Source: Asticcacaulis sp. SL142
GTDB lineage: Bacteria > Pseudomonadota > Alphaproteobacteria > Caulobacterales > Caulobacteraceae
Direction: 5' to 3'
Assembly (NCBI RefSeq): GCF_026625745.1
Contig: NZ_CP113061.1
Span: 868,001 to 932,000, forward strand
Length of the DNA stretch: 64,000 nt
In this document: positions 8,154 through 21,050 of the stretch, in pieces
Numbering within the stretch: position 1 is the stretch's first letter
Layout: the number at the start of each line of letters is the position of its first letter
Translations under genes and position numbers: made by a program
Notes under the pieces: model-generated
The model's database searches: none
What the model was told of the DNA's origin: nothing
What the model saw: the letters and a program-made list of their open reading frames with translations, nothing else

Positions 8154-9266
8154 ATGGCCCTCAAAGTCGCTATCGTCGGTTTGCCCAATGTCGGCAAATC
8201 CACCCTGTTCAACGCCCTGACCCAGACCGCCTCGGCGCAGGCCGCCAACTATCCGTTCTGCACCATTGAGCCCAATACCGGCGATGTCGCCGTGCCTGAA
8301 CCGCGTCTTGAGGTGCTGGCCAAGATCATGGGCTCCAAGGAAATCATTCCGGCGCGCATCAATTTTGTCGATATCGCTGGCCTCGTGCGCGGTGCCTCAA
8401 AAGGCGAAGGCCTCGGCAACCAGTTCCTGGCCAATATCCGCGACTGTGACGCGATTGCCTTCGTGGCGCGCTGCTTTGTTGATACCGACATCACCCATGT
8501 CGAAGGCCGCATTGATCCGATCAGCGATCTGGAAATTATCGAAACCGAACTGATGCTGGCTGATCTGGAAAGCCTGGAAAAGCGCCTGCCGAACCTTGAG
8601 AAACGCGCCAAAACCGGCGGTGATAAGGACGCGGCCATCACGGTGGGCCTGATTAATGCCGCGCTGGCTGAACTGCGTGATGGCCGTCCTGCCCGCATCG
8701 CCTACGAAAAAGGCAAGGTTTCCAAGGACGACCAAAAAGCTTGGGACATGCTGCAACTGCTGACCTCAAAGCCTGCGCTTTATGTCTGTAATGTCGATGA
8801 AGGCTCCGCCGATAAGGGCAACGACCTGTCCGAGCAAGTAGCCACCCGCGCCAAGGCCGACCATGCCAAATCAGTCGTGATTTCAGCCCAGATCGAGTCG
8901 GAAATCGCCCTGCTCGATGCCGAAGAACGCGCTGAGTTTCTTGAAACCCTGGGCCTCGAAGAACCGGGCCTGAACCGCCTGATTCGTGAAGCCTATACCC
9001 TTCTTGGGCTGCAATCCTATTTCACGGTCGGCCCCAAGGAAGCCCGCGCCTGGACCATCCATGTTGGGGATACTGCCCCGCAAGCCGCCGGTGTCATCCA
9101 CACCGACTTCGAGAAGGGCTTCATCCGCGCTGAAACCATGGCCTTTGACGACTATGTCAAGTTTAACGGCGAAGCCGGCTGCAAGGAAAACGGCAAGTTT
9201 CGCCAGGAAGGCAAGGAATACCTTGTCAAGGACGGCGATATCCTGAACTTCCGGTTCAACGTGTAA
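8154..9266 (+). CDS. ychF: Redox-regulated ATPase YchF (Obg-like)
   Basis: This 370-residue protein is a typical YchF/OLA1 family P-loop NTPase that binds ribosomes and hydrolyses ATP in preference to GTP. Visible features are the P-loop GLPNVGKST (residues 9-17), FVDIAGLVRGASKGEGLGN as the switch region, CNVDE in the position of the usual NKxD motif (which explains the relaxed nucleotide specificity), and a C-terminal TGS domain ending KDGDILNFRFNV. Length and ends are canonical. It is transcribed divergently from the aspartyl protease-like gene across about 180 bases. Confidence 0.96.
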   Translation: MALKVAIVGLPNVGKSTLFNALTQTASAQAANYPFCTIEPNTGDVAVPEPRLEVLAKIMGSKEIIPARINFVDIAGLVRGASKGEGLGNQFLANIRDCDAIAFVARCFVDTDITHVEGRIDPISDLEIIETELMLADLESLEKRLPNLEKRAKTGGDKDAAITVGLINAALAELRDGRPARIAYEKGKVSKDDQKAWDMLQLLTSKPALYVCNVDEGSADKGNDLSEQVATRAKADHAKSVVISAQIESEIALLDAEERAEFLETLGLEEPGLNRLIREAYTLLGLQSYFTVGPKEARAWTIHVGDTAPQAAGVIHTDFEKGFIRAETMAFDDYVKFNGEAGCKENGKFRQEGKEYLVKDGDILNFRFNV

Positions 9267-9307: not shown

Positions 9308-9329
9308 CAGGTGATCAGTAAATAACCCG

Positions 9330-9432
9330 AAAATCGTGAGATTTGAGTCGAGTAGCAGGAGCCTAGCGACGGAGGTATATTAAATACCTCCTAGTGACGG
9401 CGACGCACTAATCGACCAAAGACCGCGATTTT
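9330..9432. repeat. 103-bp imperfect palindromic repeat, copy A
   Basis: The element begins AAAATCGTG and ends CGCGATTTT, with a perfect central arm pair GGAGGTAT / ATACCTCC. It fills the convergent gap between ychF and the HD-domain gene and its last base lies inside the stop codon of the HD gene. About 91 of 103 positions match copy B near 20.95 kb. No coding sequence is evident inside it. Confidence 0.85.
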
Positions 9433-10085
9433 CATATCTCTTCGTGAAAGTATTCGACAAAGGCCCTCATCCGGGCCTGACGGAGTTCGGCCATATCTTT
9501 ACCGGCCCGAGTCTGAAAACCGTCTGATAGCTTAAACAGCTTAGTCGTAAAGTGATCCAGCGCAAAAGAGGCGTCATCCAGGTCGCGGCCTTGGGCTTGC
9601 GGGTCAGTCGCATCGTACAGCGATGATCCCATACGTCCTGCCGTATAAAAGCACCGGGCAATACCCACGAAACCAATGGCATCCAGACGATCCGCGTCCT
9701 GAAGTATGCGCGCCTCAAGGGTCTGGGGCGGGATATTGGCGCTGTAGCTATGGGCATGAATGGCGTGATCGACGGCATCAAGATCGGCCTCTTCCCAGCC
9801 CAGTTGGCTCAGGATTTCGCGCGCCTTATCCGCCGCCATGCGCGAGGCGCGCGACCGCTCCGGAGAATTCTTTTCGACGGCGACACAATCATGCAGCAAC
9901 ACTGCCGCCGTCAGAATGCGCAAGCACCCGCCCTCAAGCGCCTGAAGCGTGCGGGCGACCTTATAGACCCGAACCAGATGGGCAACATCATGGGCGCCGT
10001 CGTTACTGACCACGACATGCGGCAAAAGATCCTGCGCCAATTCTTCATAGGGCGCGAACCCTTCACTAAGTTGTACGAATGACAT
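9432..10085 (-). CDS. HD domain-containing metal-dependent phosphohydrolase
   Basis: A 217-residue protein of the YedJ/YpgQ-like HD superfamily. The metal ligands are recognisable: a first His in HDVAHLVRV, the HD dyad in AVLLHDCV, further His residues in DHAIHAHSY and the late Asp in LQDADRLDAIG. Relatives hydrolyse nucleotides or act as general metal-dependent phosphohydrolases; the substrate here is unknown. I prefer the ATG giving MSFVQLSEGFAPYEE over a start 14 codons upstream, because conserved sequence begins there. The stop codon is contributed by the end of the palindromic repeat. Confidence 0.85.
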   Translation of the reverse strand: MSFVQLSEGFAPYEELAQDLLPHVVVSNDGAHDVAHLVRVYKVARTLQALEGGCLRILTAAVLLHDCVAVEKNSPERSRASRMAADKAREILSQLGWEEADLDAVDHAIHAHSYSANIPPQTLEARILQDADRLDAIGFVGIARCFYTAGRMGSSLYDATDPQAQGRDLDDASFALDHFTTKLFKLSDGFQTRAGKDMAELRQARMRAFVEYFHEEI

Positions 10086-10235
10086 CGACTCAGGTCTCTT
10101 CGTTTTGGTTACGCTATTACCCTGCACAGAATCGTATACACGGTTCAGCGCTTAAGGGTCTATAAGCCACAACTGATAAGTCCGCTACACACTTTTCGGA
10201 CGAAATTTGTTCGCTGGCGCAGCAGCTCTTGAGAC

Positions 10236-10763
10236 TCAATGCCCGTCAAAGCCCACCAGACTTACGACCTTAATGCCTGCGGCCTCCAGCCTGCGCGCAC
10301 CGCCAAGGTCGGGCAGATCGATCACAAAAGCCGCGCCCACAATTTCCGCCCCACCCCGCTTAAGCAAATCGATTCCCGCCATAGCCGTCCCCCCGGTGGC
10401 AATCAAATCGTCAATCAACAGAACCCGTTCCCCCGATTCAATCGCGTCAGAGTGCATTTCTATGATGTCCATGCCGTATTCTAACTGATAGGCGCTGGAA
10501 ATCCGGTCGTGCGGCAGTTTGCCCTTTTTACGCAAAGGCACCACGCCCGCTCCCAGAATATGCGCCACCGCCCCGCCCAGTATAAACCCGCGCGCTTCGA
10601 TACAGGCGACCTTATCAATATCCGTCCCGGCAAAGGCACCGACCAATTCATCCACGGCCAGGGTAAACGCCTGAGCATCCCCTAAAAGCGTGGTGATGTC
10701 CCGGAACATGATGCCGGGCTTGGGGAAATCAGGGATAGTGCGGATGGTCGAGGCCAGTTTCAT
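10236..10763 (-). CDS. apt: Adenine phosphoribosyltransferase
   Basis: Apt salvages adenine to AMP using PRPP. The 175-residue protein has the standard length and shows [15 protein letters not shown] near residues 13-27 and the PRPP-binding loop [16 protein letters not shown]. It lies downstream of the bc1 operon on the same strand but a strong terminator intervenes, so it probably has its own promoter in the roughly 60 bases upstream of its start. PRPP would come from prs. Confidence 0.95.
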
Positions 10764-10823
10764 ATATATTATCTCAAAGCTTAGAGCCGTGCTTATACGC
10801 CTGTTTTTCGGCGCTTTTACAAC

Positions 10824-10855
10824 AAAAAAACCCGCCGAATTATCGACGGGTTTTT
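10824..10855 (-). terminator. Terminator between petC and apt
   Basis: Read on the minus strand, CCCGTCG and CGGCGGG form a 7-bp stem with one mismatch, followed by a run of seven T. It would end the petABC transcript before apt. On the plus strand it also has a T5 tail, so it could work in both directions. Confidence 0.8.
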
Positions 10856-10867
10856 ACTAAGCTAATA

Positions 10868-10908
10868 TGTGAAAATTTTCACAGGATCATATCCGAGAAA
10901 ATTTTCTC
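10868..10908. promoter_or_regulatory. Two adjacent perfect AT-rich dyads
   Basis: TGTGAAAATTTTCACA (16 bp) and GAGAAAATTTTCTC (14 bp) are perfect palindromes with centres 26 bases apart, in the gap between petC and apt. They could bind a protein or form short RNA hairpins. No function is demonstrated. Confidence 0.45.
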
Positions 10909-10927
10909 AATGCTGGAAGGGGTGCCC

Positions 10928-10951
10928 ATGAGGGGAGCCTGCTCCCCTCAT
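10928..10951 (-). terminator. GC-rich hairpin just after petC
   Basis: A perfect 11-bp stem, ATGAGGGGAGC / GCTCCCCTCAT, with a two-base spacer lies six bases beyond the petC stop. It has no T tail, so it looks more like an mRNA 3'-stabilising hairpin, with true termination at the T-tailed hairpin beyond it. Confidence 0.55.
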
Positions 10952-10957
10952 GAAGTC

Positions 10958-11839
10958 TTAGTGCTTACCGCGCCAGACAAACCTATAAGACGCATAGGTC
11001 AAACCGAAGAACAGCAGCAGATAGGCCAGAACCGCAACACCGGTCTTCTTGCGAAGAACAGCCTTGGGTTCACCGGCCCACTCAAGGAAGGCCGCAACAT
11101 CAGCCGCCTGGTTGCTGAGGGTCGATTCACGGCCATCATCAAAGGTAACCTGACCGGCGGACAACGGCGGTGCCATAGCCAGAACCCCACCGGCAGGCAC
11201 ATGCTTGTGATCGCCCGACCATGCCGACGACAGATCGCCGGGGAAGTAAGGGTTGTAATGCTGACCTTCGGCAATCTTAAGACCCGCAGGCGGTGCTTTA
11301 TAGCCAGTCAGCAATGAATAGACATAGGACGCACCACCGTGACGGGCCTTGGTAATGACCGACAGATCCGGCGGAACCGCCCCGCCGTTCGATGCCGCCG
11401 CAGCTTCCGGATTGGCAAACGGTGACGGGAAAGCATCTGAAGTAGTGGCTTTGCGGGTGATCACATCGCCCGTCTCAGAGTCAATAGTAGGCACCTCAAA
11501 TTCGGAGGCAATCTGCTTTACGACCGGGTTTTCGTTCGGGTTCTTGTACTTCGGATCATAGAACGGACCGTCCTTTTCACCCAGATTACGAAACGAAATC
11601 AGCTTCATAGAATGGCAGGCCGCGCACACTTCGCGGTAGACCTTATAGCCCCGTTGAAGCTGCGCCTGATCATAGGTGCCCAGAACGCCGCTAGAGCTAA
11701 AGCCTTCTTTGGGTTCATGGGCATGCAAAGCACCGCCTGCCGCCAGAGCCGAACCTGCCCCAAGGGTAAGCGAAGCCGTCATCACGGTCGCCGCCGCCTT
11801 AATCCACGCTTTCCTGCCGAGAGTTTGTAGGGACTTCAT
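10958..11839 (-). CDS. petC: Cytochrome c1 of the bc1 complex
   Basis: Cytochrome c1 passes electrons from the Rieske protein to soluble or membrane cytochrome c. The 293-residue precursor has a cleavable signal peptide (about 1-34, ending SALAAG), the haem c motif CAACH (Cys72, Cys75, His76), the axial Met222 in LAMAPP and a C-terminal membrane anchor (AVLAYLLLFFGLTYASY). I chose the ATG giving MKSLQTLGRKAW, six bases after the petB stop codon; an in-frame extension of 50 codons runs back into petB and lacks family features. It is the last gene of the petA-petB-petC operon. Confidence 0.95.
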   Translation of the reverse strand: MKSLQTLGRKAWIKAAATVMTASLTLGAGSALAAGGALHAHEPKEGFSSSGVLGTYDQAQLQRGYKVYREVCAACHSMKLISFRNLGEKDGPFYDPKYKNPNENPVVKQIASEFEVPTIDSETGDVITRKATTSDAFPSPFANPEAAAASNGGAVPPDLSVITKARHGGASYVYSLLTGYKAPPAGLKIAEGQHYNPYFPGDLSSAWSGDHKHVPAGGVLAMAPPLSAGQVTFDDGRESTLSNQAADVAAFLEWAGEPKAVLRKKTGVAVLAYLLLFFGLTYASYRFVWRGKH

Positions 11840-11844
11840 CTGAG

Positions 11845-13137
11845 TTAGCCCTTTTTCTTGTTGTGTTCGGCCAAAACCGCCTCGGAGATCGACGCAGGCA
11901 CCGGCAACGGCTCTTCCTTCAGACCAATCCATGGCATGATGAGCAGGAAGAAAACGAAATAATAGATTGTGAACAGACGGGTCAGCCACAGATAGGAGTT
12001 CAACTGACCGTCAAACAGGGTGAAACTCGGCAGGCCCGGAATGACCTGAGCATCCGGCAACTGAGCGCCGCACCAGCCAAGGCCCAGACAGACGATAACG
12101 AAGATCACGAAGAACCAGCGCATCACCGGACGGTAACGCATAGACTTGACCTTTGAGGTATCCAGCCATGGCAGGGCAAAGATCACCGCGATCGAACCGA
12201 ACATCGCAATCACACCACCGAATTTATCCGGGATAGCGCGCAGGATGGCATAGAAGGGCAAGAGATACCATTCAGGCACAATATGGGCTGGCGTGACCAG
12301 TGGGTTAGCCGGAATATAGTTATCGGCATGGCCCAGAGCATTCGGCATAAAGAACACAAACACCGAGAACAGGAACAGGAAGACGATAATCGCCACGCCG
12401 TCCTTAACCGTCGCATAGGGTGTGAACGCAACGGTGTCTTCCTTGGACTTGATCTCAACACCCGCCGGATTATTCTGACCGGCGACGTGCAGTGCCCAGA
12501 TGTGCAGGATGACCACACCGGCAATCACGAACGGCAGCAGATAATGCAGTGAAAAGAAGCGGTTAAGCGTCGCCTGATCGACCGCGAAGCCACCTTGCAG
12601 CCAGGTCAGGATCGGCCCGCCGATCAGCGGAATCGAGCCGATCAGATTGGTGATCACGACCGCGCCATGGAACGACATCTGCCCCCAGGGCAAGACATAG
12701 CCCATGAACGCCGTAGCGATCATCAGGAAGAAGATGATACAGCCCAAAATCCACAGAACTTCGCGCGGGGCCTTATAGGAGCCGTAGTATAGGCCGCGCA
12801 GCATGTGGATATAGACGGCAAAAAAGAACATCGACGCGCCATTGGCGTGGACATAACGGATCAGCCAGCCATAGTTCACATCGCGCATGATGCGTTCGAC
12901 ACTGTTAAACGCGTAATCAACATGCGGCGTATAGTGCATGGCCAAAATAATGCCGGTGATGATCTGAATCGCCAAACAGACTGACAAAATCCCGCCGAAA
13001 GTCCACCAGTAGTTCAGGTTCTTAGGAGTCGGATAGTCGACAAAACTGTCATAGGCCAGTCGCACGATCGGCAAACGCGAATCGAGCCACTTTTCAAAGC
13101 CGGTTTTAGGTACATAGGTAGACGGATGATCGCTCAT
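11845..13137 (-). CDS. petB: Cytochrome b of the bc1 complex
   Basis: The 430-residue membrane subunit carries both b haems and both quinone sites. The haem-ligating histidines are seen at 97 and 111 in helix B and at 198 and 212 in helix D. The Qo-site motif PEWY is at 288-291. About eight transmembrane helices are apparent. It follows petA by 17 bases and precedes petC by a few bases, so the three are one transcription unit. Confidence 0.96.
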
Positions 13138-13154
13138 GGTGCCCTGCGCTCCCC

Positions 13155-13697
13155 TTAACCGATTTTGACGCGAGTATCGGTCAGGAAATCATATTCCGGA
13201 ACGACCAGATTGAGCGGGGCCGGGCCTTTGCGGATGCGGCCCGACGTATCGTAGTGAGAGCCATGGCACGGACAGAACCAGCCACCATAGTCACCGGCCC
13301 CAAAGGTCGGCACGCACCCCAGATGGGTGCAGGAACCAACAAGAATCAGCCATTGTTCTTTGCCCGCCTTAACACGGTCGGCATCGGTTTGCGGATCTTT
13401 CAGATCAGCCAGCGGTGTATCCTGAGCCGCCTTGATCTCCGAACCTGTACGGCTGCGAATAAAGACCGGCTTACCGCGCCATTTAATCACGATCTGCTGA
13501 CCTTCCTGAACCTTGGTCAGGTCGAACTCCGTCGACGCCATGGCCAGAGTATCGGCTGCCGGATTCATTTGCGCCACCAGCGGTACGGCAATAGCCCCCA
13601 CGGCACCCACGGCGGTCGCCCCCGCAGCAATGTAGATAAAGTCGCGGCGGGACGTATCGTCATTCACCGCAGCGGCCGTATTGTCAGGTTCGCTCAC
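13155..13697 (-). CDS. petA: Ubiquinol-cytochrome c reductase Rieske iron-sulfur subunit
   Basis: The 180-residue Rieske protein has a twin-arginine motif SRRDF (residues 16-20) just before its single membrane helix, as expected for Tat-dependent insertion. The 2Fe-2S ligands lie in CTHLGC (Cys123, His125, Cys128) and CPCHGSH (Cys142, Cys144, His145). It is the first gene of petABC. The promoter should lie in the roughly 220-base gap shared with the divergent trmL. Confidence 0.96.
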
Positions 13698-13919
13698 CTT
13701 GCCACCTCATAGTTTTCCTCTGCCACGTCCCCTTAGCGCTATGCGTTAAAGTGCCGCGGCCCGCTTCGTTCATAGCCGAAGCGCCCATAATTACAAACCT
13801 TCCATCCACCGATTCCGTTAAAAATTTAACTCAAATCAGCATTTATCGGTTCTTGTATCCGTCTATAACCACAATTGCAGGATGGATTCAAACCCGTAGT
13901 CCGGAAAACCTATAAAATC

Positions 13920-14390
13920 ATGCGTTTTGTATTGTACCAGCCCGACATCCCTCAAAACCTCGGCAGCGCCATACGTCTGGCGGCCTGCCTTGAGGTAAGC
14001 CTTGATATTATCGAGCCTTGCGGCTTTCCCCTTAATGACAAAGCCATCAAACGGGCAGCTATGGATTACGGGGGGTGCGCTGATGTGTCGCGGCATGATT
14101 CGTGGGACCGGTTCAAAAACTGGCGCGCCAGTTCAACCCCGGCATCCAGAGTGATCCTGTTTACAACCAAGTCTGCGGCCCCCTATTGTGACTATGGGTT
14201 TCAGGCAAACGACATACTGCTGTTTGGTCGCGAAAGTGCGGGCGCACCCGATGAGGTTCATGCCTATGCCGATGCGCGCCTGTTCATCCCGATCAGCGCT
14301 CAGGCCCGCTCAATCAATGTCATAAATTCAGCCTCCATGGCGCTGGGGGAAGCCCTGCGCCAAACAAGCACCTTTCCTGTCAGGCCCTGA
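13920..14390 (+). CDS. trmL: tRNA (cytidine34/uridine34-2'-O)-methyltransferase TrmL
   Basis: A 156-residue SPOUT methyltransferase that 2'-O-methylates the wobble base of certain tRNA-Leu species in the model bacteria. Visible are YQPDIPQNLGSAIRLAACL near the amino terminus, LLFGRESAGAP (motif 2) and SINVINSASMALGEALRQ (motif 3, trefoil knot). The ATG giving MRFVLYQPDIP matches the family start; an upstream TTG would add 15 unconserved residues. The gene is divergent from petA and runs toward hemF. Confidence 0.92.
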   Translation: MRFVLYQPDIPQNLGSAIRLAACLEVSLDIIEPCGFPLNDKAIKRAAMDYGGCADVSRHDSWDRFKNWRASSTPASRVILFTTKSAAPYCDYGFQANDILLFGRESAGAPDEVHAYADARLFIPISAQARSINVINSASMALGEALRQTSTFPVRP

Positions 14391-14439
14391 TCAGCCTATA
14401 AGCCCCTGAAACCTCCCGCCACTTGTCCGTGAGCCCCTT

Positions 14440-15330
14440 ATGCTGAACACCGCCATTGTCACCACCCCAGATGTACTGGCCGATCGCCAGAAGGCGGCGT
14501 CCGCCTGGTTTCGGTCTTTGCGCGACCGGATTTGCGCTGCATTTGAGGCGCTGGAGGATGAAGCGTCGCCGTCACTTTACAAAGGCGAAGCGGGCCGGTT
14601 TGTGCGCAGTCCCTGGCAGCGGGCTGAGGGCGGCGGCGGTGAGATGTCGATGATGACCGGCCGCCTGTTTGAAAAGGTCGGCGTTCATATCTCTACTGTG
14701 CATGGCACGTTTAGCCCGGAATTTGCCAAAACCATTCCCGGCGCCGACGAAGACCCGCGCTTTTTTGCCACCGGCATCAGCCTGATTTCGCACATGACCA
14801 ATCCGCGCGTGCCAGCGGTGCATATGAACACCCGCTATATCTGCACGACCAAGGGCTGGTTTGGTGGCGGTGCCGACCTGACACCGCTGCTGGCGGTGGA
14901 TCGGTCTCAGGCAGCGCCGGATGCAGCCAAATTCCATCAGGCGTTCAAAGACACCTGCGATCAGTATGGCGCAGACTATTATGAGCGCTTCAAAAAATGG
15001 TGCGACGAGTATTTTTTCCTGCCTCACCGCAATGAGTCGCGCGGCATCGGCGGCATATTCTATGACCACTTCAACAGCGGCGATCATGACGCCGATTTCG
15101 CTTTCACACGTTCGGTCGGTGATACGTTCCTCGATGTTTATCCCGTCATAGTGCGTGACCGCTTTAATGAACCGTGGAGCGAGGCCGAGCGCGAGGAACA
15201 GCTGATTCAGCGCGGGCGCTATGTCGAGTTCAACCTGCTCTATGATCGCGGGACGCTGTTTGGGCTGAAAACCGGCGGCAATGTCGAGTCTATCCTGTCC
15301 TCCATGCCGCCCTTGGTAAAGTGGCCTTAA
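14440..15330 (+). CDS. hemF: Oxygen-dependent coproporphyrinogen-III oxidase
   Basis: HemF converts coproporphyrinogen III to protoporphyrinogen IX using O2 in haem synthesis. The 296-residue sequence shows [39 protein letters not shown] and [21 protein letters not shown] as separate conserved blocks of the family and ends normally. It follows trmL by 49 bases. An oxygen-dependent enzyme beside the bc1 operon fits aerobic growth, since haem is needed for cytochromes b and c1. Confidence 0.96.
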
Positions 15331-15334
15331 CCTC

Positions 15335-16045
15335 TTAAGCGGCCAAGAATCTGGAGATCAGCTTTAAGATATCCTGACTATGGCCCTGTTCCTGAAGGCT
15401 AATCAGGGCGGTATCGACCAGTTCCTCATCTATGCGCACGCCCCGGCGGGACTTCAGCAGATCACCGGCAAAATCAGCGCAAAACTCAGGGTGGCACTGA
15501 AACGAGATCGCCTTACGGTCAGAGTAGTACAGCGCCCCATACGGCGTGAACTCAGAACCCGCCAGCACAATGGCATTGTCGGGTTTTTTGACCACCTGAT
15601 CCTGATGGGTCACCGCGACCTTGATGGCTCGATGCGCATCGTCGGTTAAGGTACTCCAGATATCGCCGTCATGGATAGTATATTCATGAAGCCCTACGCC
15701 CCAGCCTTTGTGAGATTTTTCGACATGGCCGCCCCAGGCCTGCGCCATGACCTGATGGCCGAAACAGATACCGACCACCGGCACATCAGCCCGCAGCGCT
15801 TTCAGCCAGTCAATCAGGGCCGCAATCCACGGATCACTCTCATAAACCCCGGCTGGCGAGCCGGTAATGACCACGCCGCGAAAGTCTTCATTAATATCCG
15901 GCAGTTCCCCGTCCAGCGTCTTAAATACCCGAAAAGCGCGCTCCGGCTCATGCAGCTTTTTGGCAAACATATCGGCATAGGTACCGTAGGTCACATCAAG
16001 ACCTGCGGGCGGAATACCGGTTTCTAAAATGGCGACATAACTCAT
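15335..16045 (-). CDS. Class I glutamine amidotransferase domain protein (GMP synthase-like)
   Basis: A stand-alone 236-residue class I (triad) amidotransferase. The nucleophile is Cys94 in VGICFGHQVMAQA, and the His/Glu of the triad are His185 and Glu187 in QCHPEF. There is no ATP-pyrophosphatase domain, so it is not a complete GMP synthase. Members of this COG0518 group include gamma-glutamyl hydrolase-like enzymes; the substrate is not evident. It sits 39 bases downstream of cca on the same strand and four bases from the converging hemF stop. Confidence 0.85.
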   Translation of the reverse strand: MSYVAILETGIPPAGLDVTYGTYADMFAKKLHEPERAFRVFKTLDGELPDINEDFRGVVITGSPAGVYESDPWIAALIDWLKALRADVPVVGICFGHQVMAQAWGGHVEKSHKGWGVGLHEYTIHDGDIWSTLTDDAHRAIKVAVTHQDQVVKKPDNAIVLAGSEFTPYGALYYSDRKAISFQCHPEFCADFAGDLLKSRRGVRIDEELVDTALISLQEQGHSQDILKLISRFLAA

Positions 16046-16084
16046 GGCACAGCAACTCAGTATGGTAAGTCAGGGGCGAAAATC

Positions 16085-17329
16085 TTACTCGCCGCTTATT
16101 TTTGGCTGTTTGTGAAGTTCGTCAAGGGCGCGATCTATCACGCTTTGCGAAAAATCATGTGTGCACCAGTCCGCCTCGATCCGTTTCAGGGTCTGGCCAA
16201 GGTAAGGGCCTGCCTCAATTCCTGCGGCCATGAGATGCCGCGCCGTCAGCGGAAACTCCGGTATGGTCATATGTTCAAGCTCAGCTATCGACCCGGCAAG
16301 ATCGGCCCCGGTCTGCGCGTGGGTTAGATAGACTTCATCCGTGACAGCCTCACGCCCATACTCATAGAGCGCGCGCCGCAACGGATAGCCTCCGTCCAGC
16401 GCCTGCCGCACCTTAACCACAGCCTCAAGTCTTTGCCGGGCGCGATTTGACACTCTTAACCTCGAAAGTACATCGGTCACGGCGGAAACATGTCCGTCGA
16501 AGTACAGTCGCCCTTCATCGCTTTGGGCCAAAAGCGCCATAAACCGCCGCTCAATATCGGTGGTCGCCTGAACCATGCGTGTAAGCACCGCAGATTGCAC
16601 CGGATCATACTCAAGGCCCGGCAGGATACGCGACATTATGCCCGTTTCCCACATTCGGTTATAAACGACCGGTGCACCGTCATAGACCAGCATCTTGGTC
16701 AGTTCCTGAAGCAGGCGCTCACCCGACAGGCCATCGATGCCGTATCTCAGGCGAATGCACGCCTCCAGAGACTCCGCATCAAGAGATTGCGCATAAGCCG
16801 CTGAAAATCTGAAAAATCTCAAAATTCGCAGATAATCCTCACGGATACGTTGTTCGGCCTCACCGATGAACCGCACCACCCGCGCATTGGCATCCTCAAG
16901 GCCTTTTCCGGTCGGATCGTAAACCTGCCCGCGAATATCGGCATAAAGCGCATTGAGGTAAAAATCACGTCTTTGAGCGTCTTCGGTCCAGTCTGTCGTG
17001 AAACTGACCACCGCCCGCCGTCCATCGGTTTCCACATCGCGCCGCAGAGAGGTAATCTCATAGGTCTCACCGCCCACCACCGCCGTGATAGTGCCAAACA
17101 CCTTGCCAGTCGGGATATGGTGAATACCGGCGACATCAAGGGCGGCTTCGATATCATCGGGCGTCAGTTGCGTCGACAGGTCAAAATCGCTGACCGGCAA
17201 ACCCATGATCAGATTGCGCACCGATCCGCCGACAAAGCGCACACACCCCGCCCCGCCCTTGGCCTCCAGCGCGGTAAAGACATCAAGGGTCGCTCCGGTA
17301 CGCATGGAGACGGGCAGATCAAGATTCAT
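16085..17329 (-). CDS. cca: CCA tRNA nucleotidyltransferase/poly(A) polymerase family protein
   Basis: A 414-residue class II nucleotidyltransferase expected to add or repair the 3' CCA of tRNA. The head domain has GGSVRN (34-39) and the metal-binding pair in SDFD (Asp48, Asp50), followed by a DLSTQL segment and RRD motifs in the neck. The start chosen (MNLDLPVSMR) has a GGAAG ribosome binding site eight bases upstream; a GTG six codons earlier is also open. It forms a cluster with the DUF1285 and GNAT genes upstream. The same order occurs in relatives, as far as I recall. Confidence 0.92.
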   Translation of the reverse strand: MNLDLPVSMRTGATLDVFTALEAKGGAGCVRFVGGSVRNLIMGLPVSDFDLSTQLTPDDIEAALDVAGIHHIPTGKVFGTITAVVGGETYEITSLRRDVETDGRRAVVSFTTDWTEDAQRRDFYLNALYADIRGQVYDPTGKGLEDANARVVRFIGEAEQRIREDYLRILRFFRFSAAYAQSLDAESLEACIRLRYGIDGLSGERLLQELTKMLVYDGAPVVYNRMWETGIMSRILPGLEYDPVQSAVLTRMVQATTDIERRFMALLAQSDEGRLYFDGHVSAVTDVLSRLRVSNRARQRLEAVVKVRQALDGGYPLRRALYEYGREAVTDEVYLTHAQTGADLAGSIAELEHMTIPEFPLTARHLMAAGIEAGPYLGQTLKRIEADWCTHDFSQSVIDRALDELHKQPKISGE

Positions 17330-17361
17330 CAATATTGCTTCCGGCACATATTCGGATGAGT

Positions 17362-17868
17362 CTAAATCACGCTGGGTTTAAGATCAAATGACTGCGATCC
17401 GAATATGATCCGATCCCTCTGCACATCCGCGATGTCAATCAGTCTGTACCAGGCCGCCCGCGTCACGCGCGCCCACAAATTATGGCGCACTCTGATCCGG
17501 GGCCACAAATCATCGCCATCAAAAGCCAGCGGATGCTCAGCCCCTAACGTCACGCGCTCACTCTGGTCTGTGCTGAAAACCAGCGTTTCCCCCTCACGAT
17601 CAAAATCAACCGCCAAAAACGGTAGATCCTCGACGGTGATCTTCAGTTTTTCAACCGGCGTGATCAGGTAATAGCCATCGTCATCATAACGCAACAGCTT
17701 GGCAAATAAGAATATCAACGATTGACGCTCAATGCGCGCGCCTTCATGCCACCATGAACCGTCTGCGCGAATGACAATGTCTATCTCGCCGCACAGCTTT
17801 GGGTTCCAGAGCTCTACCGGATAGCCCTCAACCGGAGTGAACCTGTTTTCCAGATCAGCGCCGGACAC
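17362..17868 (-). CDS. DUF1285 domain-containing protein
   Basis: A protein of about 168 residues with the DUF1285 pattern: VELWNPKLCGEIDIVI, DGSWWHEGARIERQSLI, and LITPVEKLKITVEDLPFLA in sequence. DUF1285 proteins are small soluble all-beta proteins of unknown function, typical of alpha- and gammaproteobacteria. The start is uncertain. The GTG used here overlaps the preceding GNAT gene by 14 bases; an ATG 12 codons upstream would overlap it by 50 bases and has no ribosome binding site. Translational coupling with the GNAT gene is likely. No function is assigned. Confidence 0.82.
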   Translation of the reverse strand: MSGADLENRFTPVEGYPVELWNPKLCGEIDIVIRADGSWWHEGARIERQSLIFLFAKLLRYDDDGYYLITPVEKLKITVEDLPFLAVDFDREGETLVFSTDQSERVTLGAEHPLAFDGDDLWPRIRVRHNLWARVTRAAWYRLIDIADVQRDRIIFGSQSFDLKPSVI

Positions 17869-18385
17869 TGACCTTACCCGTAAGCGGCGTCGCCCCCTCG
17901 GCATAGGCGATCAGGATACGCTTGGGATCGGCTGGCCCCGGTAGGGAAAGCTGCGCCCGCTCAAACCCGAACCGCTTGAAGTAGTCAAAATCCCCGACCA
18001 GAACCACCGCGCTCAGACCTTTCGCAAACGCCTTATTAAGCGCTGTTTCAACCAGTTGCGAGCCAATACCGCCACCCTGTACGACCGGATCGACCGTAAT
18101 CGGCCCCAGAAAGGCCACTTCGGTACTCGTGTCACCATCATCAGATTTTACGACGACCGGCCATAATCTGACGGAACCCATAAGGGTGTCGCCCTTCATG
18201 GCGACCAGACTAAGATCGGGGTACGGGCGATTACCCTCACGCAAACGCTCAGCCGTCTTGACATAGCGGCCAGGGCCAAAAACCTTATAAATAAGGTTAG
18301 TTATAGCTGAATCCTGATGCACCGCCTCCGGTGCTACCACCAGTGCGTTCGTCGTGTCGCTGTAAAGATATGCGTCCAAGGGCAA
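17855..18385 (-). CDS. GNAT family N-acetyltransferase (YhbS-like)
   Basis: A 176-residue GCN5-related acetyltransferase. The acetyl-CoA binding motif A is visible as VDPVVQGGGIGSQLVE, preceded by the beta-strand EVAFLGPIT and followed by VVLVGDFDYFKRFGFE, typical of the COG3153/YhbS group. Substrate is unknown. It is the first gene of a minus-strand cluster (GNAT, DUF1285, cca), with overlap into DUF1285. Confidence 0.87.
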   Translation of the reverse strand: MPLDAYLYSDTTNALVVAPEAVHQDSAITNLIYKVFGPGRYVKTAERLREGNRPYPDLSLVAMKGDTLMGSVRLWPVVVKSDDGDTSTEVAFLGPITVDPVVQGGGIGSQLVETALNKAFAKGLSAVVLVGDFDYFKRFGFERAQLSLPGPADPKRILIAYAEGATPLTGKVSVRR

Positions 18386-18516
18386 ATCCGTAACCTCAAC
18401 CTGATCCGGCCAAAAGAACTAAAGCCACCGGGAGCGCGCGCTTTATAACGCGGGGGTATCCGCGTCAAATCAATTAGACCGTCAAACTGTGACAACTCTA
18501 TGGTTGGCTATCGGGA

Positions 18517-19266
18517 TCAGGCGGATTTTTTCATAAAGGCGGCAAAGGCTTGCGCCGCTTCGGGAGATGCCAGTTGCTCCTGGAAAATGCGCCCTTCCTC
18601 CACAATAACCGCCCACAAATCGTCAGGGGCGCGCATCAGGGATTTCGTGTGACGAAGCGCCGACGGCGACAATTTGGTCAGTTTTCGCGCGGCGGTCATG
18701 GCCGCGCCTAAAACATCATCGTCAACAACCGCCGTCGCCAGATTAAGCCGCAGCGCTTCGGATGCCGTAACCGCCTCGCCCAAAGTCATCCAGGCAAAGG
18801 CCCGTGGATGACCGACGAGTTTCGGCAATAGACGGCTGGAACCGGCTTCCGGTACCAAACCAAGCTGCACAAACGGCAGGGACAATCTCGCATCTGCTGA
18901 TAGATAGACCAGATCGCAATGCAGCAGCATGGTGGTGCCGACGCCTACGGCCTGCCCCTGAACCGCTGCCAAAAGAGGTTTGGGGAAATAGTTGATAGAC
19001 TTAAGGAATTGAAAAACCGGCAAGTCCTCAACGCCGCCATTCAGGAACCCCGACTGCATAAAATCAAGTATATCATTGCCCGCGCAAAAATCGCTCCCCT
19101 CGGCGCTCAGAACCACAGCCTTCACCTCAATATCCGCCGCTGCAGCCTCGATATGCTCACTCAAAGCCCGGTACATATCCGACGTCAGGGCATTCTTTTT
19201 GGAGGCGCGATTGAGGCGCACATGGACGATGCCATCCGTATATTCACTCAGAACCCACTCACTCAT
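18517..19266 (-). CDS. Enoyl-CoA hydratase/isomerase family protein
   Basis: A 249-residue crotonase-fold protein. The oxyanion-hole segments are SDFCAGNDI (around 58-66) and QAVGVGTTM (around 105-113), and Glu140 in LVPEAGSS is the expected catalytic acid. The second glutamate of classical hydratases is not apparent at its usual place, which fits an isomerase or another crotonase activity; this is inference. No other fatty acid oxidation gene is adjacent. Confidence 0.87.
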   Translation of the reverse strand: MSEWVLSEYTDGIVHVRLNRASKKNALTSDMYRALSEHIEAAAADIEVKAVVLSAEGSDFCAGNDILDFMQSGFLNGGVEDLPVFQFLKSINYFPKPLLAAVQGQAVGVGTTMLLHCDLVYLSADARLSLPFVQLGLVPEAGSSRLLPKLVGHPRAFAWMTLGEAVTASEALRLNLATAVVDDDVLGAAMTAARKLTKLSPSALRHTKSLMRAPDDLWAVIVEEGRIFQEQLASPEAAQAFAAFMKKSA

Positions 19267-19473
19267 GACGTTTCCTCAAGCGTGCGGCATATGCCGATAT
19301 AGAATTTTTATTTTCAGCGGTCTTTAAACATTACGCAGCGCCTTTAAGGACTTGCCATGCTTAGGCCATATCCTGTAGGCAATCTGCGTATAAAACTGAC
19401 AACACCACCCCTTATAAGCCGGGTCAAGGCCGTTGCGCTGAGGTATTCCAAAACACTCTCTCGGGAAACTACG

Positions 19474-20856
19474 ATGAACATTTTCTCAATAGCCCGCAAA
19501 CTTCCGGCAATCGTTGCGGCAGCAGCGCTCGTCATGGGCGCGGGTCAGGCTCTGGCCGCTGACGTGAAGGTGACGGACAAAACCCGCGCCAAGGGCATGG
19601 CCGATGCGCCGGCGTTGCTGGCCACCTCCGGCGTTCCATGCCAGCTTAGCGACGCCCACTTTATCGGCGAAAGCACAGCCACGGCAACGGATGGTAAAAA
19701 ATCCAAGATCGTCGTGTATGAAGTCGCCTGTCAGGCGGGGCCTGGCTATATTCTGGCCAAAAATGCCGACGGCACCATCGCCACAACCTTCAACTGCACG
19801 CAAGCCTGGTCTCAAAACGCAATCGACCCCAAAGCGACCAAGTGTTTGTTGCCTGCCAATGTGAACCACTATGCCTGGCTTCAGGAACCGGTTCAAAAGC
19901 TGAGCACGGCCTGTACCGTCAACAATGCCCGCTGGTTGGGCAGCAGCGATGAAGCCAAGATTGACCGCTACGAAGTGGGCTGTTCGGCCGGTGCGGGCGG
20001 CGTTCTGGATCTGGCGCGCGCGGGGTCTGCAAACCCCAGCACCTTTGATAACTGTCTGGTCATGGATCTGAAAAAGGTCACCTGCCAGTTCACGACCCGC
20101 GAGCAGGCGATTGCCGCAATTAAGCCTCTGGCGCAAAAGGCGTCGGCTTCGTGTCAGGTCAATAACTCCCGCCTGATCGGTCGCGTCACCGCCGACAACG
20201 AAGACTATTACGAGTTCGGCTGCGCCAATGAGGCCGGTTTCCTCGTCCGCGCCAAAACCAATGGCGACTATCTGGCCAAGATAAGCTGCGCCAATGCCGG
20301 AACTCTGGGCCCCTGCCAATACACAGACTCAGCGTCTTTGGTTGCCGGTCAGAATGCCGCCTACACCGCGACCCTGAAACAAGTCGGGATCAATTGCACG
20401 GTCGAAGCCTATAATGTTGTCGGCACCCAAACCCAGACTAACCGCGATTTCGTCGAGTTCAAATGCCCTGAGCAAGCGTTTGGCGTAATGGGTTTCTTGC
20501 CTAACGAAGGCTCAACCGCAAAAGCTGATGTGTTCGATTGCTATACCGGCATTGCCCGCAAGCGTGAGTGCACCCTGACCCCGGCTACGGTTCTGCTGGC
20601 CAACCTTGATGCCCTCGCTAAGGCCGATAAGAAGGATTGTGACGTGCAGGAAGCCCGCTATGCCGGCCTAACTGACACTGATGGCGTTCTAGTCGAACTG
20701 GCGTGCTCCAACAAGCGCGGCTACATCGCCGCCCTTGCCAAGTCACGCAAGACCTTTGAGGATATCATCGCCTGTAATATCGCCAAGAATCGTGCCGGTT
20801 ATGAAACCTGCAAAATCCCAGGTAACGGCACCTATGTTTCGGATGTGAAGCCTTAA
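19474..20856 (+). CDS. Exported protein of five four-cysteine modules, function unknown
   Basis: A 460-residue protein with a clear Sec signal peptide (about 1-29, cleavage after QALAA). The mature part contains exactly 20 cysteines in five consecutive groups of four: 56/86/108/124, 147/170/184/194, 217/240/262/271, 298/321/346/356 and 379/401/424/436. Each module begins with a C-x-V/L-x-(N/D)-A/S-R/H-x-x-G pattern, has a central Y/V-E-(V/F/L)-x-C and ends in a closely spaced Cys pair. Even cysteine number and export suggest two disulfides per module in the periplasm or outside. I do not recognise a named domain. The ATG chosen gives the signal peptide directly, with GGGA upstream; a longer in-frame extension adds 39 residues in front of the signal. 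A strong terminator follows. Confidence 0.82.
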   Translation: MNIFSIARKLPAIVAAAALVMGAGQALAADVKVTDKTRAKGMADAPALLATSGVPCQLSDAHFIGESTATATDGKKSKIVVYEVACQAGPGYILAKNADGTIATTFNCTQAWSQNAIDPKATKCLLPANVNHYAWLQEPVQKLSTACTVNNARWLGSSDEAKIDRYEVGCSAGAGGVLDLARAGSANPSTFDNCLVMDLKKVTCQFTTREQAIAAIKPLAQKASASCQVNNSRLIGRVTADNEDYYEFGCANEAGFLVRAKTNGDYLAKISCANAGTLGPCQYTDSASLVAGQNAAYTATLKQVGINCTVEAYNVVGTQTQTNRDFVEFKCPEQAFGVMGFLPNEGSTAKADVFDCYTGIARKRECTLTPATVLLANLDALAKADKKDCDVQEARYAGLTDTDGVLVELACSNKRGYIAALAKSRKTFEDIIACNIAKNRAGYETCKIPGNGTYVSDVKP

Positions 20857-20860
20857 GCTG

Positions 20861-20888
20861 AACCTCTGAACCTCTGAACCTCTGAACC
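20861..20888. repeat. Short tandem repeat AACCTCTG x3.5
   Basis: Three and a half perfect copies of the 8-mer AACCTCTG stand directly after the stop of the four-cysteine module gene and before its terminator. Possible replication slippage; no function seen. Confidence 0.7.
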
Positions 20889-20890
20889 AA

Positions 20891-20930
20891 AATAAAAACC
20901 CCGCAGGCACTAACCTGCGGGGTTTTTATT
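20891..20930. terminator. Bidirectional rho-independent terminator
   Basis: A perfect 17-bp stem, with AATAAAAACCCCGCAGG on the left arm and a CACTAA loop, carries A and T tracts that serve both strands. It sits in the convergent gap between the four-cysteine module gene and the dihydroorotase gene. Confidence 0.92.
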
Positions 20931-20945
20931 TATAGCCAACCGTCC

Positions 20946-21050
20946 ATAAATCGTGAGATTTGAGGTGAGTAGCAGGAGCTAAGCGACGGAGGTATATTAG
21001 ATACCTCCTAGCGACAGCGACGCACTAATCACCCAAAGACCACGATTTAT
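20946..21050. repeat. Palindromic repeat, copy B (103-bp core)
   Basis: Perfect inverted ends ATAAATCGTG / CACGATTTAT flank the same 103-bp core as copy A near 9.33 kb, with the central pair GGAGGTAT / ATACCTCC. The right end supplies the TAA stop codon of the minus-strand dihydroorotase gene. At several positions the two copies differ in both arms so that pairing is kept. Confidence 0.87.

Follow-up and report, generated by a model that had tools for sequence, protein, structure and literature searches.

Several described families of intergenic palindromes come close to an imperfect hairpin element that we found, in two copies named A and B, in a 64,000-nt stretch of the Asticcacaulis sp. 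SL142 genome (contig NZ_CP113061.1, positions 868,001 to 932,000 of the forward strand; hereafter the window). Intergenic palindromes are usually taken as selfish DNA or as terminators; this family is tied to a stop codon within a few bases. Rhizobia carry the Rhizobium-specific intergenic mosaic elements (RIME), palindromic and structured intergenic repeats of about the size of our element. The CcrM-associated intergenic repeats (CIR) of Caulobacter reportedly go back to a study by Chen and Shapiro in 2003, and Liang, Rudd and Deutscher are said to have dealt in 2015 with the repetitive extragenic palindromic (REP) sequences of Escherichia coli that lie within 15 nt of stop codons. In the accounts cited here, REPs at such distances are reported to stall ribosomes and to lower expression, and 446 of the 4,072 REPs surveyed lay within 15 nt of a stop (PMC12306157, PMC5082802). 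CIR are described as structured intergenic repeats of ~110 bp in Caulobacter and Brucella (PMC2229807), Bru-RS1 and Bru-RS2 of Brucella as palindromic repeats of 103 and ~106 bp (PMC10800456, PMC2266754), and RIME appear under their full name in PMC2573895 and PMC2245857. CGTC-tagged REPs, according to their description, are mostly alphaproteobacterial, have no dedicated transposase and carry a terminal tag on stems of 8-9 bp with loops of 4-5 nt (PMC3733652). Stable stem-loops between genes, according to one survey, occur preferentially in convergent gaps and in the first 50 bp past a stop codon (PMC1590033). The open-licence literature, as far as its text was accessible, held no description of our family, nor of a stop-codon anchor for an alphaproteobacterial repeat.

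Copies A and B (Table 1) are identical in 91 of 105 aligned columns, in line with the ~91 of 103 common bases given in the initial annotation of the window, and the GGAGGTAT/ATACCTCC centre matches exactly in both copies, as had been noted. Each lies in a gap flanked by convergent open frames and ends within the minus-strand gene's stop codon, also as annotated, and this stop codon, a detail at the time, is the family's most consistent property. The claim that differences between A and B keep the pairing holds for the two outermost pairs (GC to AT and AT to TA) and for two inner pairs (CG to TA), but one of the pairs listed differs on a single side only. Dinucleotide shuffles fold less well than either strand of either copy (z from -5.5 to -9.3), and in none of the four cases did any of 200 shuffles do as well. 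With copy A as the query, blastn returned 15 copies in the 3.7-Mb genome at E<0.002, and a first and a second, broader covariance model found 21 and 22 distinct copies, numbers beyond chance, the E-values of these models being rough. Because the repeat is nearly palindromic, several of the blastn copies initially aligned in the wrong direction; after re-orienting, 14 genome copies aligned with a mean column identity of 76%.

We called the genes around 126 copies with a home-made codon-usage caller, with all copies oriented so that the sense strand corresponds to the minus strand of the window. This set comprised 100 loci chosen among the better matches listed, 21 of the 22 copies of the SL142 genome and five from another genus of the order; it excludes duplicates on the second strand and, at one locus (L174), two additional tandem copies. 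The preceding gene reads toward the element in 120 of the 126 copies, and the following gene is convergent in 74 and codirectional in 43. In 97 copies the stop codon of the preceding gene lies between -3 and +4 nt of the first hairpin base, whereas the same test at the other hairpin end picked out a single one of 79 opposite-strand genes. Among the SL142 copies alone, 15 of 21 were placed at -3 to +4, against a null of 3.5% of the possible positions in the window (P about 7e-18). The anchored copies use TAA, TGA and TAG 58, 26 and 13 times, compared to 31, 19 and 8 times in the window, and since this usage is window-like and the offset varies by a few nucleotides, the hairpin seems to be anchored by the stop as such rather than by a fixed DNA word. 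Some host frames continue into the element for ~25 nt (7 of 126, at +25 or +26).

At least one copy sits at a stop in 27 of 31 clusters of host genes, which hold 113 of the 126 copies and merge some distinct genes through shared domains. Housekeeping hosts include genes of the RodA/FtsW family, GcrA and RecR. Neither the 31 clusters nor the 17 hosts of the SL142 genome that could be named by Pfam showed a functional theme, so we rejected a regulon of one functional host class. Truncation of the host protein by the element was ruled out at the two genes compared, those preceding copies A and B.

The element is a single imperfect hairpin of ~105 nt with conserved internal loops that are unpaired or mismatched. 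Two-sided changes occur in 16 of 34 pairs among 14 copies of the SL142 genome and in 31 of 37 pairs among 49 diverse sequences, the latter with 321 two-sided cells compared to 86 after shuffling. The covariation score of the 49 sequences was 0.490 as against 0.153 in shuffles, and fell to ~0.1 when the partner was shifted by 1 to 3 columns; these sequences came from the first model, which is biased to its own structure, and their relatedness inflates the shuffle test. The outer stems differ wholesale between copies, with pairing nonetheless kept. The initial annotation had suggested selection on a folded nucleic acid, which these results strongly support, and many orthologous copies are in addition nearly frozen. 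The family is neither limited to two copies, nor devoid of covariation, nor mostly intragenic, the outcomes that had been named as telling against that suggestion.

We compared the same genes across species. The copy B host gene is present in all 25 genus genomes, and its protein has the same end with or without the element; by eye, 12 of these genomes have a clear element after it and one (G011) a degenerate copy. This degenerate copy (L214) has lost the single-hairpin fold and is apparently a decaying cassette at a conserved site. In another genome (L221, G018) the element is absent after the stop of the copy B gene, and a different long inverted repeat is found there, its arms containing CACGAATG/CATTCGTG. 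The copy A host gene is present in 13 of the 25 genomes, and a script located its end in 10 of them, the SL142 genome with the element and nine without it, all with the same protein end. The remaining three orthologues (G002, G004 and G013), whose ends the script did not locate, are the other carriers of the element. In 86 same-gene comparisons among five close species, 34 differ by no more than 4% in the element while third codon positions differ by 9-33%; 7 others differ by 6-14% and 45 by 18-51%, the last usually with another core type at the same stop. At the DUF3126 gene, which we followed in five species, a short form lies ~10 nt past the stop in one, a long form lies at the stop in two, and two have no element. 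In these two (L275 and L276, from G013 and G009), another inverted repeat, rich in C and G, fills the gap between the stop and the convergent gene. The single set of filled and empty sites that we compared for a target duplication was too diverged to show one. From these comparisons, the element at a given gene looks like a constrained yet replaceable cassette.

Among 100 relatives, all 25 genomes of the genus (SL142 included) had matches to the element; the 35 genomes from the family's other genera had none, and in the remainder of the order 2 of 40 did, the two belonging to a single genus. Genus genomes hold 1 to 26 matches each, counting both strands, and an exact core pattern searched in named genomes occurred in 19 stretches, every one in Asticcacaulis records. 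In the wider class the first model matched 6 and the second 19 of 385 genomes, the SL142 genome counted in both, and two genomes outside the class also had model matches. Copy B had no blastn match among plasmids. In Rfam, the window at the gathering cut-off gave one tRNA only and no match to the element, and three element loci searched up to E=1 gave two weak matches, both far from the element. Three copies stand in tandem ~120-130 nt apart at L174 (G020:C1:2702451-2706674; matches 2001-2110, 2129-2224 and 2250-2345). In the other genus of the order, copies lie after or near homologues of ArgJ, TypA and RodA (L067, L068 and L069), which also host copies in Asticcacaulis (clusters 15, 22 and 4), the names other than RodA being assigned by sequence reading.

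The long form reaches further: of 299 phylum genomes, 20 contain its apex (GCTCAYGTA..TACRCTCCGC), and the reversed control gave 0 in each row listed. Of 17 distant genomes with readable loci, eight have a copy that starts at a stop in the same orientation and nine do not, as judged with raw frames at -5 to +10 nt (4 of 15 rows, 5 of 14 rows and L241). In the set of 21 distant loci, seven were skipped at contig edges; L241, one of those skipped, was examined separately with the longest frame ending near its start, which leans toward a match. With raw open frames of at least 90 codons, 19 of 30 rows of distant copies have a frame ending at -5 to +4 nt, the rows including near-identical sets of four and of two loci. 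Distant hosts include PNPase, TypA, RecR, ribosomal protein L20, FtsH, a dicarboxylate symporter, an Alpha-E protein and MlaA; RecR is a host in the SL142 genome too, and TypA, by sequence reading only, in another member of the genus. In five genomes of one genus the long form lies within -5 to +8 nt of a stop at its sense start in 17 of 40 cases and at its other end in 3 of 40, and since one of its elements matches plasmids of Shinella, Rhizobium and Sphingobium, this genus is probably rhizobial. The deposited annotation of 8 of the 31 matching plasmid records, with element ends extrapolated from the match, places a stop within ~4 nt of an end in four, with genes ending at both hairpin ends in the Shinella record and at one end in those of Allorhizobium, Sphingobium and Phyllobacterium. 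A gene ends 9 nt off in the Aminobacter record and 26-29 nt off in two further ones; the eighth is unannotated. At another distant locus (L099, G365:C22), two near-identical long-form copies stand ~260 nt apart, and the test applied placed neither of them at a stop codon. The one hint of transcription comes from Thalassospira, where a 22-nt small RNA predicted from small-RNA reads includes a portion of the long-form apex (PMC6413936).

Table 1 Coordinates of copies A and B, their host genes and their neighbours, in positions of the window
Feature	Position	Strand	Basis
Hairpin element, copy A	9329..9433	- (sense strand; element comes after HD-domain gene)	Covariance-model matches, fold, alignment
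Stop codon TGA of the copy A host gene, overlapping the base of hairpin A	9432..9434, read 9434-9432	-	Sequence, open frame; relatives without the element keep the same stop
Copy A host gene, 231 aa, HD domain PF01966	9432..10127	-	Open frame, Pfam
YchF-type GTPase, convergent neighbour of copy A	8154..9266	+	Open frame, Pfam
Hairpin element, copy B	20946..21050	- (sense strand)	Covariance-model matches, fold, alignment
Stop codon TAA of the copy B host gene, within the base of hairpin B	21047..21049, read 21049-21047	-	Sequence, open frame; protein end conserved in 25 genomes
Copy B host gene, 441 aa, amidohydrolase PF01979	21047..22372	-	Open frame, Pfam
Convergent open frame beside copy B, 499 aa, without Pfam match	19357..20856	+	Open frame, Pfam
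Perfect terminator-like inverted repeat, separate from and beyond copy B	20890..20931	.	18-nt arms, 100% complementary

A short direct repeat with an 8-bp period (GAACCTCT) occupies 20860-20888, just past the stop of the plus-strand frame that faces copy B.

We hypothesize, with a probability of roughly 0.45, that the element is a stop-codon-anchored hairpin cassette of the 3' untranslated region (3'-UTR) that would work, by analogy, like the E. coli REPs near stop codons. The hairpin would form the very start of the 3'-UTR, with a stem starting at the host stop codon, so that the stop in the stem base would leave no single-stranded gap between the reading frame and the hairpin. A gapless hairpin of this kind could block 3' exonucleases and deny RNase E or Rho a landing place just past the gene; it may seal the end of the message and face the ribosome as it terminates, which is reported for E. 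coli REPs no more than 15 nt from a stop. The conserved internal loops would probably be read by a putative protein or nuclease. We infer that this action takes place within the host mRNA, and each of these steps in the cell is put forward in the same conditional sense. New sites and type replacement suggest copying between loci, by recombination or by a putative mobilising enzyme. That distant copies, found gene-blind with models and a pattern, also start at stops counts for a stop-anchored cassette.

Several observations weigh against such a cassette. Of the 126 copies, 29 fall outside -3 to +4; in two genomes of other classes a stop lies near the sense start in just 2 of 10 and 3 of 10 copies, with 1 of 10 at the other end in each; and some distant copies have a stop at the other hairpin end or none nearby, indicating that the orientation is not strict outside Asticcacaulis. 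The mismatches also fit poorly. If selection acted on nothing but the host mRNA, G-U pairs on the sense strand should be favoured over A-C, which is G-U in the other strand, and yet, with three ambiguous loop pairs omitted, we counted 17 G-U and 37 A-C against 2414 Watson-Crick cells in convergent settings, and 14 G-U and 20 A-C against 1379 in codirectional ones. This scarcity of G-U does not support a simple mRNA-only model; the counts would agree with very strict stems, or with a need for pairing in DNA or in both strands.

Pairing kept without a G-U bias is what would be expected of DNA, and it enters two other explanations. In one, the element is a selfish non-autonomous mobile palindrome, like a miniature inverted-repeat transposable element (MITE) or a REPIN, moved as a single-stranded hairpin by a putative enzyme; stops would be the least harmful or the preferred sites, and the structure would serve mobility and not the host. 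Dispersed copies in variable number, the same gene with and without the element, and types swapped at the same stop all agree with this, and the initial annotation had likened the palindrome to REP and MITE elements. That likeness holds only as an analogy: the Y1 (RAYT) transposase, PF01797, is absent from the SL142 genome and occurs in just 4 of the 25 genomes of the genus. A selfish copy, once inserted, would not be expected to stay under purifying selection at the same site in different species, as it does in 34 of 86 comparisons, and a strict anchor with a floating offset at any of three stops does not look like a target word; we regard this explanation as doubtful, if worth serious thought. 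The other explanation is a DNA-level site at gene ends, a cruciform or protein-binding repeat for supercoiling, gyrase or a nucleoid protein as proposed for the BIMEs of E. coli, for which the mismatch spectrum and the 74 copies between convergent genes speak. It gives no reason for placement within a few nucleotides of a stop at one end only, and 43 of 126 copies lie in codirectional gaps; we think it unlikely.

A bidirectional transcription terminator would suit gene ends, convergent gaps and the A-rich and T-rich stem ends, but a stretch of 8 nt with at least 6 T occurs at the 3' end of only 9 of 126 copies, and with the T run absent from most copies we rejected an intrinsic terminator. A separate terminator-like hairpin follows within 110 nt downstream in 24 of 126 copies compared to 2 of 126 in shuffles, and for the copy B gene, by eye, 11 of 12 clear copies have one beyond the element. 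The inverted repeat beyond copy B in the window (Table 1) means that copy B is not the sole candidate for ending these transcripts, and altogether a terminator function appears very improbable. Least credible to us is that pairing is kept by arm-from-arm copying during replication (quasipalindrome template switching) and not by selection. At divergences of at least 15%, two-sided changes outnumber one-sided ones by 1077 to 356 in comparisons that are not independent, with intermediates rare, both in favour of arm copying. Below 3% divergence, in contrast, 18 changes in pairs are one-sided and 0 two-sided, indicating that instant arm-to-arm copying is not required and weakening a pure form of the idea, and the mismatched loops are kept and not repaired.

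Returning to the stop-anchored cassette, one that is near-frozen or wholly replaced after housekeeping genes (PNPase, TypA and FtsH in distant genomes) makes a testable case for a host function, and the family connects REP elements with mRNA ends and with translation termination. Nature offers sets in which one gene occurs with, without or with another cassette, and these suit experiments. A wider idea, which we hold tentatively, is that stop-anchored hairpins may form a class of 3'-UTR cassettes across Pseudomonadota, exchangeable between genes. They would be a module of general use in translation termination or at mRNA ends, and several intergenic palindromes that now carry separate names could be its local branches.

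By the tests made, the element falls outside the CIR, the RAYT-type REPs, the CGTC-REPs and the intrinsic terminators. CIR have two arms with a linker and a conserved GANTC, as defined in a review (PMC2229807), whereas our element is one hairpin in which GANTC is not conserved: 53 of 126 copies contain it and 73 have none, with 54 sites compared to 52 expected, 50 of the 54 at one place. CIR are moreover described from Caulobacter, and the element had no match in 35 genomes of the family's other genera. The CGTC string occurs inside many copies, as in the CGTC-tagged REPs; however, with 34-37 pairs in one long hairpin and no end tag, the element does not belong to that family as described. Absence of the Y1 transposase from the SL142 genome likewise set aside a RAYT-linked REP or REPIN.

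RIME and the Bru-RS repeats are by description closest to the element in size and taxon. Bru-RS1 and Bru-RS2 are, like it, palindromic, of similar size and alphaproteobacterial; anchoring at the stop codon, found in our element, is not stated for Bru-RS in the portions of their descriptions at hand (PMC10800456, PMC2266754). RIME are rhizobial, and the long form of the element is frequent in the one probably rhizobial genus; this comparison too is by description, and no Sinorhizobium meliloti plasmid was among the long-form matches listed (30 of 31 matching records). If RIME or Bru-RS belong here, part of the family has already been described by other names, and the novelty lies in its stop-codon anchor, covariation and breadth. 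Stem-loops in general favour the stretch past the stop in the survey cited, whereas this is one homologous family, with the stem beginning no more than a few nucleotides from the stop. E. coli REPs, as portrayed in the accounts cited at the outset, are likewise dispersed palindromes after genes and near stops, proposed to affect translation and decay. They are units of 20-40 bp, tied in many species to RAYT, compared to ~105 nt and a genome without RAYT, and 446 of 4,072 of them lie within 15 nt of a stop, a range in which 97 of our 126 copies are placed, all of these at -3 to +4 nt.

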